Of a DNA stretch of 37,669 bases, positions 626 to 13,376 are shown one piece after another; position 1 is the first letter of the stretch; each line of letters starts with the position of its first letter. This DNA comes from a virus. The notes under the pieces are model-generated. The model did not search any database, was not told where the DNA came from, and worked only from the letters and a program-made list of their open reading frames with translations. Location of the stretch: IMG/VR virus record IMGVR_UViG_3300042452_000376, positions 1 through 37,669 of that record, one strand, 5' to 3'. The position numbers and the translations under genes were made by a program.

Positions 626-931
626 ATGTTCTTCTTATCCGGCTTACTTGCTGCAATAGCAATGATCTTCTTGCTACTCAAACTCAACCTTCGCCGCATC
701 GCAAAGTACGACATATTCCTGGACGTAGTACTTACGTTCTTTTTTATCTGGATATTTGCCGGTACTTTCGCGGGCATGATGGCTGGCCTTTGGGCCGGTG
801 CCCTCATATCCATATTCTTGTGGTGGGCTAAACGCAACGTGCCACAAGAAGAACTTAAGTGGATCAAGACCAAGCGCTTTCCCTATAGAAAGCTAACTTG
901 GGTCACTGTTATTAAAACTAAAAACCGTTAA
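626..931 (+). CDS. Small integral membrane protein (101 aa)
   Basis: The gene starts at ATG 626 after a GGAG site (CACGGAGCACTGACA). The protein has an N-terminal hydrophobic helix (about residues 2-18), a basic loop (LNLRRIAKYD), and two closely spaced hydrophobic segments (about 30-47 and 49-68) separated by Gly/Ala-rich turns. A basic cytoplasmic-looking tail of about 30 residues follows (WWAKRNVPQEELKWIKTKRF). The layout suggests a two- to three-span inner-membrane protein with the Lys/Arg-rich end in the cytoplasm. No family is recognised. Superinfection exclusion or another host-membrane role is possible, but only its position among early genes suggests this. Confidence 0.65.
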   Translation: MFFLSGLLAAIAMIFLLLKLNLRRIAKYDIFLDVVLTFFFIWIFAGTFAGMMAGLWAGALISIFLWWAKRNVPQEELKWIKTKRFPYRKLTWVTVIKTKNR

Positions 932-937
932 CGAACA

Positions 938-1037
938 TCTGGCCTCTGGCCGGTTACAAACTTCAGCCCCCCTGAACCAAGCTCTTGGTGACCAGTGCAA
1001 GCCAAGAGTACTTGTCTGTAACTGGTCAGAGGTTAGA
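938..1037 (+). ncRNA. Predicted structured RNA: three-way junction in the leader of the MoxR gene
   Basis: Bases 938-958 pair with 1017-1037 in an uninterrupted 21-bp stem with four G-U pairs. Every wobble has G in the 5' arm and U in the 3' arm, so the fold works as + strand RNA but would have A-C mismatches on the other strand. Inside the closing stem are a 5-bp hairpin (962-966 with 972-976, loop CCCCC) and a longer hairpin (982-988 with 1002-1008, extendable by 979-981 with 1011-1013 across a 2-nt bulge), giving a three-way junction. It lies between the membrane-protein stop and the ribosome site of the ATPase gene, and contains no convincing + strand reading frame. It could be a cis-acting leader, an RNase III processing site or a small RNA. 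I cannot match it to a known class. Confidence 0.6.
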
Positions 1038-1064
1038 CCTACCGCATTACTTAAGGAGTAACAA

Positions 1065-2063
1065 ATGCGTACTATCCGCCCATCACAGCTCAAGTCCGAA
1101 CTTAAAGCCAACGCTCTGGCCCGCGTGCCGAGCATGATCTGGGGCCCGCCAGGTCTTGGTAAGTCTCAGATTGTTTATCAATTTGCCAACGACCTACACG
1201 CCAAGGTCTTCGAACTTCGTGCCAACCTGTTCGACCCCGTCGACGTTCGTGGCGGTCTCAAGGTTGTCGAGCAAGCCGATGGTTCATACCGTACTCGTTA
1301 CGGCGTGCCTGAGGATTACCCCGACACTAACTACCAAGGCACCGTCGTGCTGCTCATCGACGAGTTGCCCAATGCACCCAAAGCTACGCAAAACGCGTTG
1401 CTGCAGTTGACGCTCGATCGCAAGATCGGCACTTACGTTCTTCCCGAAAACACCATTATTGTTGCCGCAGGCAACCGGTCGCAAGATCGTGCTGCTGTTC
1501 ACGAGATGCCCACCCCGGTCAAGAACCGCTTTGCGCACTACACGCTCGAAGCAAACATCGACGACTGGGTAGCTTGGGCACTGCGTAACAAAATAGACGA
1601 TAGTTTGATCTCGTTTCTTCGTTACCGCCCGAGTCTGCTTCACAGCTTGGACGCTAACGACTACGCGTTTCCGTCACCCCGTACCTGGGAGATGGTCAGC
1701 CGCAAGTTGCCACATATGAACGACATGTTCTATGGCGTTGCATCGCTCGTTGGCGACGGCCCGGCTGGCGAATACTTGGCCCACAAGGCAATCCACAAGG
1801 ATCTGCCTGATATCGAAGACTTAATCAAGAACCCGTCAACCAGCCACGTCCCGAGCGACCCATCAGCTTTGTACGCAATTGCCGGTGCATTGGCATCTCG
1901 CGTAGACCAGCTGAACTTCGACGCAATCATGCGTTACAACAGACGTTTGCCACGCGAGTTCCAAGTAGTTCTTGTCCGCGACTGCCTGGCCAAGGAACGT
2001 ACTTTGATTAACGAAAAGTCATTTAAGGACTGGACCACCGCTAACGTAGAAGTAGTCATCTAA
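1065..2063 (+). CDS. MoxR-type AAA+ ATPase
   Basis: The 332-residue protein has the core of a MoxR-family AAA+ ATPase: Walker A GPPGLGKS at 27-34, Walker B VVLLIDE at 94-100, a sensor 1 Asn at about 137 (AAGNRSQD) and a likely arginine finger in PVKNRF (Arg155). The helical lid follows. MoxR ATPases usually act as remodelling chaperones with a partner carrying a von Willebrand factor A domain, and such a partner is encoded two genes downstream (2768-3886). The start at 1065 has an AAGGAG site. That site can fold into a short hairpin (TTACT and AGTAA around TAAGG), and the large RNA structure at 938-1037 lies just upstream, so expression may be controlled by RNA structure. The ATPase call is firm; the substrate is unknown. 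Confidence 0.9.
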   Translation: MRTIRPSQLKSELKANALARVPSMIWGPPGLGKSQIVYQFANDLHAKVFELRANLFDPVDVRGGLKVVEQADGSYRTRYGVPEDYPDTNYQGTVVLLIDELPNAPKATQNALLQLTLDRKIGTYVLPENTIIVAAGNRSQDRAAVHEMPTPVKNRFAHYTLEANIDDWVAWALRNKIDDSLISFLRYRPSLLHSLDANDYAFPSPRTWEMVSRKLPHMNDMFYGVASLVGDGPAGEYLAHKAIHKDLPDIEDLIKNPSTSHVPSDPSALYAIAGALASRVDQLNFDAIMRYNRRLPREFQVVLVRDCLAKERTLINEKSFKDWTTANVEVVI

Positions 2064-2073
2064 GGAGAATCAC

Positions 2074-2766
2074 ATGGCTTCCGTACGACTAACCAACGAA
2101 ATCCGTAGCGACATTCACCGTAATGCTATGGAAGCTTTCAAGGTTGCTAAACCTACACCTAAACCTACCACTTGGCTTTCTGACCGAATCCGCGACGGTA
2201 TCATCGGATCCGAAGCATACAAAGTCCTTAAGGAATTGTACGAAAGCCGTAGCCGATACACTTTCACTTCCTTTGGTGGAATGCCTAACAACATAAATCA
2301 AACCAACGACGCTAGTATTAACTTAACTTCTAAAACTAACTTTGGGGCTAGCTCTTTTGTAGAAAACAATAACAAAACCATTCAGGTTGAAATGGTTCCT
2401 CAGATCAAGCTTTTTCGAGGCTCGTCTTGGGGAACCCCAGAGTTTTCGTTTGAAGACTTTAGTCCACAGGTACGTGCAGATCTTGCTGGCCCTTTGCAAC
2501 AGCTTTCTAAAGACATCATCGATCACTTTTCTGAACAACATGAATATCATAAAAAAATCAACGATCTTTTGAACGCGTGCACGACGGTTAAGCAATTGCT
2601 TACTGCCTGGCCAGCAGGCGAATCGTTTGTTGCCCACGAACACAAAACACGTATGTACACCAAGATCACTCGTGTTGAGCGAGCCAAACAGATCCGAGAA
2701 GAAGTCCAATTCGACGACACATTGGTAAACGAAGTAGTACTCACCGCAAAACTAGTAGGAGGCTAA
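2074..2766 (+). CDS. Unknown protein, possibly Nmad5-like, between the MoxR and VWA genes
   Basis: The 230-residue protein starts at ATG 2074 with an AAGGAG site. The N-terminal pattern RLTNEIRSDIHRNAMEAF and the later pattern TTVKQLLTAWPAGESF resemble phage proteins of the Nmad5 type (nucleotide modification associated domain 5), but this is from memory of the pattern and is not a domain hit. The middle (about 70-125) is rich in Asn, Thr and Ser; the last third is helical and charged. It sits 10 bases after the ATPase and 1 base before the VWA/peptidase gene, so the three form one unit and may act together. A role as an adaptor or substrate of the MoxR system is equally possible. Confidence 0.55.
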   Translation: MASVRLTNEIRSDIHRNAMEAFKVAKPTPKPTTWLSDRIRDGIIGSEAYKVLKELYESRSRYTFTSFGGMPNNINQTNDASINLTSKTNFGASSFVENNNKTIQVEMVPQIKLFRGSSWGTPEFSFEDFSPQVRADLAGPLQQLSKDIIDHFSEQHEYHKKINDLLNACTTVKQLLTAWPAGESFVAHEHKTRMYTKITRVERAKQIREEVQFDDTLVNEVVLTAKLVGG

Positions 2767-12974: not shown

Positions 12975-13376
12975 GTGAACGAACACGGCTTTATACGAGC
13001 TGTACATATGGATCTTCCATCGGAGGTTTTCCGGTGGAAGATCCATGATACGTTTGCAGGCGGAGTACCTGACGCATTCTACGCAGGGCGATTACGTACT
13101 CTTTTTGTCGAATACAAATACGTAAAAACATTCCCTAAACGCGACACAAGCCCAATACGTACCAGCCTCAGTACACAACAAATGCACTGGCTAAACAGGT
13201 TGCACGACCTTAACCAGCCAGTAGCCGTTGTCATCGGCTGTGAAAAGTTAGCCGTTGTTCTTACAAACAAAACATGGTCAGAATACATACCCAAAAAAGA
13301 CTTCATGCATAAAGCTGTGTCTTTTGCGGATGTATCAAACTGGATATACAGACGCACTCATATTGAGGACGTATGA
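12975..13376 (+). CDS. VRR-NUC-type PD-(D/E)XK nuclease
   Basis: The GTG at 12975 is preferred to ATG 13008, because homologues of this family begin with a pattern like NE..FI..VH..LP before the conserved WKI(H/N)D, all of which the GTG start includes. The nuclease core is present: GGVPDAFY (Asp33), LFVEYKYV (Glu46, Lys48), then STQQMHWLNRL, the Gln-containing helix of VRR-NUC enzymes. The length, 133 residues, is normal for a stand-alone phage member. It would cut branched or flap DNA in recombination or replication. There is no clear ribosome site, so it may be coupled to the upstream gene (3 bases away). A 17-bp hairpin lies inside the gene (13008-13046). The stop overlaps the next start. 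Confidence 0.75.
   Translation: MNEHGFIRAVHMDLPSEVFRWKIHDTFAGGVPDAFYAGRLRTLFVEYKYVKTFPKRDTSPIRTSLSTQQMHWLNRLHDLNQPVAVVIGCEKLAVVLTNKTWSEYIPKKDFMHKAVSFADVSNWIYRRTHIEDV
13008..13046 (+). repeat. Near-perfect 17-bp inverted repeat inside the nuclease gene
   Basis: Bases 13008-13024 pair with 13030-13046 around the five-base loop GGTTT. All pairs are Watson-Crick except one T-G at 13020/13034. The outer 12 bp are perfect (ATGGATCTTCCA with its complement). The hairpin also contains the in-frame ATG at 13008. Confidence 0.7.

Follow-up and report, generated by a model that had tools for sequence, protein, structure and literature searches.

The window analyzed here is the whole 37,669-nt stretch of IMG/VR record IMGVR_UViG_3300042452_000376 (positions 1-37,669), and its coordinates are given on the + strand. 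Within it, a structured element lies between the gene for a membrane-type protein, a conserved neighbor sharing 70-93% identity with the homologues of those relatives that were aligned, and the gene for a MoxR-type AAA+ ATPase (Table 1). Downstream of the element, after the MoxR gene and a gene with an Nmad5 domain, a DUF2201 metallopeptidase/VWA-like protein is also encoded. All four genes are on the + strand with tight spacing, and a scan of the gap between the membrane-protein and MoxR genes for sigma-70-like promoters found none. Judged from its sequence, the phage region around the element looks polycistronic.

Table 1. Coordinates of the genes and RNA features, and membership of the element types.
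Feature	Sequence	Positions	Strand	Remarks
Membrane-type protein gene	window	626..931	+	101 aa; upstream gene
P1 long stem, 5' arm	window	938..958	+	fold and covariation
Hairpin P2	window	962..976	+	UUCAG-CCCCC-CUGAA, loop CCCCC; enclosed by P1
Hairpin P3	window	981..1009	+	loop with CAGUGCA at 993-999; enclosed by P1
P1 long stem, 3' arm	window	1017..1037	+	fold and covariation
Weak hairpin over MoxR Shine-Dalgarno and start codon	window	1043..1069	+	-6.0 to -6.4 kcal/mol; in W-type copies
MoxR-type AAA+ ATPase gene	window	1065..2063	+	332 aa; phrog_1297; downstream gene
Nmad5-domain gene	window	2074-2766	+	nucleotide modification associated, Pfam PF18757; between MoxR and DUF2201 genes
Element, W type	window, L002, L006, L009, L043			
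Element, T type	L010, L011, L012, L015, L067			
Element, E type	L018			
Element B	L010	5718-5974		
Element B	L012	5764-5974		
Element B	L016	5251-5470		
Element B	L017, L048, L050			

The initial annotation had described a 21-bp uninterrupted stem enclosing two hairpins before the MoxR gene, and both our reading of the letters and their folding agree with it. The long stem, P1, contains four G-U pairs and no A-C. As had been claimed, all four wobbles are oriented for + strand RNA, with every G on the 5' arm and every U on the 3' arm. The folded region 920-1075 reached -56.8 kcal/mol (z = -5.67), and 0 of 200 shuffled sequences folded equally well. With G-U pairs allowed, neither strand of the 37.7-kb window had a stem longer than P1; the longest stems in six mononucleotide-shuffled control windows measured 14-16 bp. 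The second-longest stem of the window (19 bp with G-U allowed, 3-nt loop) is at 13007-13047, inside an ORF starting at 12975. P1 ends at 1037, which is 27 nt upstream of the MoxR ATG at 1065, the distance originally given. The accompanying claim that the stem does not bury the ribosome site was correct, with the refinement that the weak hairpin at 1043-1069, separate from P1, pairs part of the Shine-Dalgarno sequence and the AUG.

Relatives were collected from IMG/VR by MoxR and membrane-protein searches. Their contigs, together with the window, held 11 distinct copies of the element in three types, W, T and E, and every copy sits between the same two genes. A covariance model built from the W and T copies found one locus per searched contig, always the MoxR leader; matches on the minus strand marked the same places, and two marginal matches in L001 had E above 1. 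L018 is too divergent for this model, so its homology is drawn from position and an alignable stem only. IMG/VR motif scans (5' arm, 3' arm, loop pattern and L018 stem) matched the same MoxR leaders and nothing else, apart from four chance matches to the loop pattern, all without the stem. A distant blastn search of phage and plasmid records gave no match to the element, and a MoxR-profile search of the genome collection returned only two remote MoxR relatives.

The stem is 21 bp long in the window, 24 bp in L002, 20 bp in L015 and 17 bp in L018. Close W-type relatives have 24 bp, and the window copy has lost one pair at the inner end to A-C. Between types the sequence of P1 drifts while its pairing persists. 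The C-run in the apical part is kept in all copies, and CAGUGCA is kept in the W and T types although the surrounding hairpin stem differs; it is missing from L018.

Paired changes in homologous leaders had been set beforehand as a test, and they were found. In the 11-row alignment, the 21 P1 pairs were formed in 97.8% of cells and two-sided changes occurred at 7 of them (20 cells in all), counts that do not represent independent events because there are few effective independent lineages. None of 500 shuffles reached the covariation score of the alignment, and when the partner was slid by 1-3 columns only 0-1 two-sided pairs were seen. With L018 left out (9 rows), 97.3% of cells were paired and there were 5 two-sided pairs in 14 cells, a pair count that was less striking by itself, being matched in 47 of 500 shuffles. 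The enclosed hairpins each showed one two-sided change, weak alone: among W copies, the pair closing the CCCCC loop of P2 went from G-C to A-U (L002, L009), and among T copies a U-A pair of P3 became C-G.

The two strands were not equivalent. G-U occurred at 11 stem columns and A-C at 1 (46 vs 3 cells; binomial p = 0.006 with columns treated as independent), and with one representative per type the columns stood at 11:1 or 11:0. The + strand RNA gave the better fold in all 11 copies, by 6-18 kcal/mol. These biases speak against a strand-symmetric DNA inverted repeat and, together with the two-sided pairs, bear out the original preference for an RNA. The strand bias by itself is compatible with a + strand ssDNA hairpin and is not by itself decisive. 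Taken together, stem pairing, two-sided changes and better + strand folding make it well supported, from comparison of the copies, that the element is under selection at the RNA level, or at least on the + strand. All 42 stem positions are identical in the window and L002 while their MoxR genes share 91.6% of nucleotides, which fits mild purifying selection.

On the other hand, the view of the structure as part of a conserved MoxR leader was not supported. The element is absent from relatives with 71-81% MoxR nucleotide identity, and the same gene pair occurs without it in L024, L051, L016, L017, L048 and L050. L024/L025 and L051 have short leaders, just a few dozen nucleotides in L024 and L051. 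In L016, L017, L048 and L050 the only insert is element B, an unrelated structured sequence of ~220 nt, and L010 and L012 have both elements. Element B was found in six viral contigs only. It is conserved at about 95% (by eye), compared to 78% for the MoxR genes, with an RNAalifold energy of -74 kcal/mol and one two-sided pair. It had no Rfam match, and its identification as HEARO (IscB omega-RNA) was rejected for lack of a match.

The MoxR genes of L011 and L013 are 99.1% identical, yet the L013 leader has been replaced whole, from 4 nt past the upstream stop to the Shine-Dalgarno sequence, with exact junctions relative to L011. The new content (L013 5616-5970) comprises a 92-aa ORF, for which no Pfam match was found, and the near-perfect palindrome TTGTTGCCAGTTGAGCTCAACTGGTAACAA. 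The arms of this palindrome resemble T-type inner arms in swapped order. On the MoxR gene tree, in which five inner forks are weakly supported, presence and absence were not cleanly sorted. Where the element occurs, it always lies at the junction of these two genes, but it is dispensable among the phages compared: some close relatives have exchanged it for other contents, which makes it an accessory, not an essential switch. Other long stems occur at L018 1804-1999, L015 491-688 and L033 3485-3607, most of them from GTGTGTCA-like repeats; they may mark an iteron region or an origin of replication.

The initial annotation could match the structure to no known RNA class, and neither could we: Rfam 15 gave no credible family match at curated gathering or at relaxed cut-offs, with tRNA identity checked through Rfam only. 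An integron attC-like hairpin was rejected by eye, as RYYYAAC/GTTRRRY core sites are not present at both ends; a 3' end resembling GTTRRRY (GTTAGAC) was seen in W-type copies alone, and their 5' end has no RYYYAAC to go with it. Searching for a single-subunit phage RNA polymerase returned nothing but was uninformative, as the control gave no signal either.

Three options had been put forward for the function of the element: a cis-regulator, an RNase III site, or a 3' end or small RNA. We rank an RNase III-type processing site first, with a probability of roughly 0.4. The element would then be a structured intercistronic RNA whose double-stranded part directs a host RNase III-type enzyme to cut, shields the RNA, or does both. 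The membrane-protein and MoxR genes would share one polycistronic transcript, on which a host double-strand-specific RNase would cut, and/or the stem would protect the RNA, at P1. The membrane-protein message would thus be separated from the MoxR-Nmad5-DUF2201 message, each with its own stability, as at T7 RNase III sites, and the cut or the stem would alter expression.

We favor this reading because two-sided changes preserve the pairing from type to type, with a + strand bias, and because the element lies between tightly packed genes of the same strand in a gap without a promoter-like site. The drift of the stem sequence under persistent pairing argues in the same direction, and the exchangeability of the leader suits a modular element that tunes expression. 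RNase III-class enzymes act on substrates of this kind, duplexes of about 20 bp or longer, and the 21 bp of the window, with their + strand bias, provide the two or so helical turns of double-stranded stem expected of such a site. A search of the relatives' contigs for an RNase III gene found none, with positive controls; a host enzyme would therefore be needed. Against an RNase III site, the conserved C-run and CAGUGCA exceed what a plain site of this kind needs, and a scan of the window's other gene junctions found no set of comparable long intergenic stems.

A further point against it is that four of five T-type sequences (the exception is L012) have a U-tract immediately 3' of the stem. 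This fits termination better and keeps alive the reading of the element as a leaky terminator or attenuator that would end part of the upstream transcripts and lower MoxR expression. The T-type copies L010, L011, L014, L067 and L015 have AUCUUUUU directly or a few nucleotides 3' of the stem. However, there is no U-tract after the stem in the window, where the 3' arm is followed by CCUACCGCAUUAC, nor in L002-L009, L012 and L018, so these copies do not look like intrinsic terminators, and the short gap holds no promoter-like site to restart transcription. We regard termination as rather unlikely. The conserved loops likewise keep alive the idea of a regulator acting in cis: its C-run and CAGUGCA loops would bind a small molecule or a protein of phage or host and govern translation of MoxR, possibly together with the start-site hairpin. 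The C-run of all copies, the CAGUGCA shared by W and T despite differing hairpin stems, and the weak Shine-Dalgarno/AUG hairpin of the W types speak for this. It is nevertheless unlikely: there is no Rfam match, no visible alternative pairing links P1 to the Shine-Dalgarno sequence, CAGUGCA is missing in L018, some types show no start-site hairpin, and close relatives have lost or swapped the element. Just as doubtful is a new family of phage regulatory RNAs. Its long stem would present the CCCCC and CAGUGCA loops to a phage or host factor so as to control the operon of the MoxR ATPase, and it would sit in a leader slot used by phages to trade different structured RNAs (the element and the ~220-nt element B).

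Differing slot contents among relatives and the exact L011/L013 junctions could also point to a feature acting mainly at the DNA level, either an exchangeable leader cassette or an ssDNA hairpin for recombination. Each contig has a single copy at one genomic position, with no element-like ends and no transposase seen, and the G-U over A-C and one-strand folding biases also go against this reading, which makes it quite improbable. Least probable of all is a small RNA or upstream message 3' end that is cut out and acts in trans, its C-rich loop meeting Shine-Dalgarno sequences; the compact stable fold and exposed C-run would suit such a role, but neither a promoter-like site nor a consistent terminator accompanies them.

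The element seems to represent a family not described before, of a kind that is itself known. It documents, with covariation in uncultured phages, an RNA structure outside Rfam, and it points to one junction between genes at which different structured RNAs are exchanged among related phages. Should it prove to be an RNase III-type site, segmentation of mRNA at double-stranded sites would extend past T7-like model phages; if its loops bind a factor, they would offer a handle on the control of phage MoxR operons.

Several known systems bear comparison with the element. Most T-type copies share with intrinsic terminators a U-tract after the stem, whereas none of the window type, L012 and L018 has one, and the stem of the element is by far the longer one and, in the window type, is branched. 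The manA and wcaG RNA motifs are structured cyanophage RNAs that were likewise found by comparative genomics (PMC2864571); unlike them, the element has no Rfam match, and its gene context is different. In the rpsO-pnp operon of E. coli, intercistronic RNase III cleavage uncouples the stability of two coding sequences (PMC8708148). The element has a comparable intercistronic position, but rpsO-pnp is a cellular operon and no sequence relation is claimed. The T7 R1.1 hairpin is an RNase III substrate in phage pre-mRNA that drives mRNA maturation and protection (PMC8708148). R1.1 is cut on a single strand and has bulges and mismatches (PMC8708148), whereas the element has an uninterrupted stem and a junction with two small hairpins. 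By analogy with R1.1 and the other T7 RNase III sites, it is a candidate hairpin substrate in phage mRNA.
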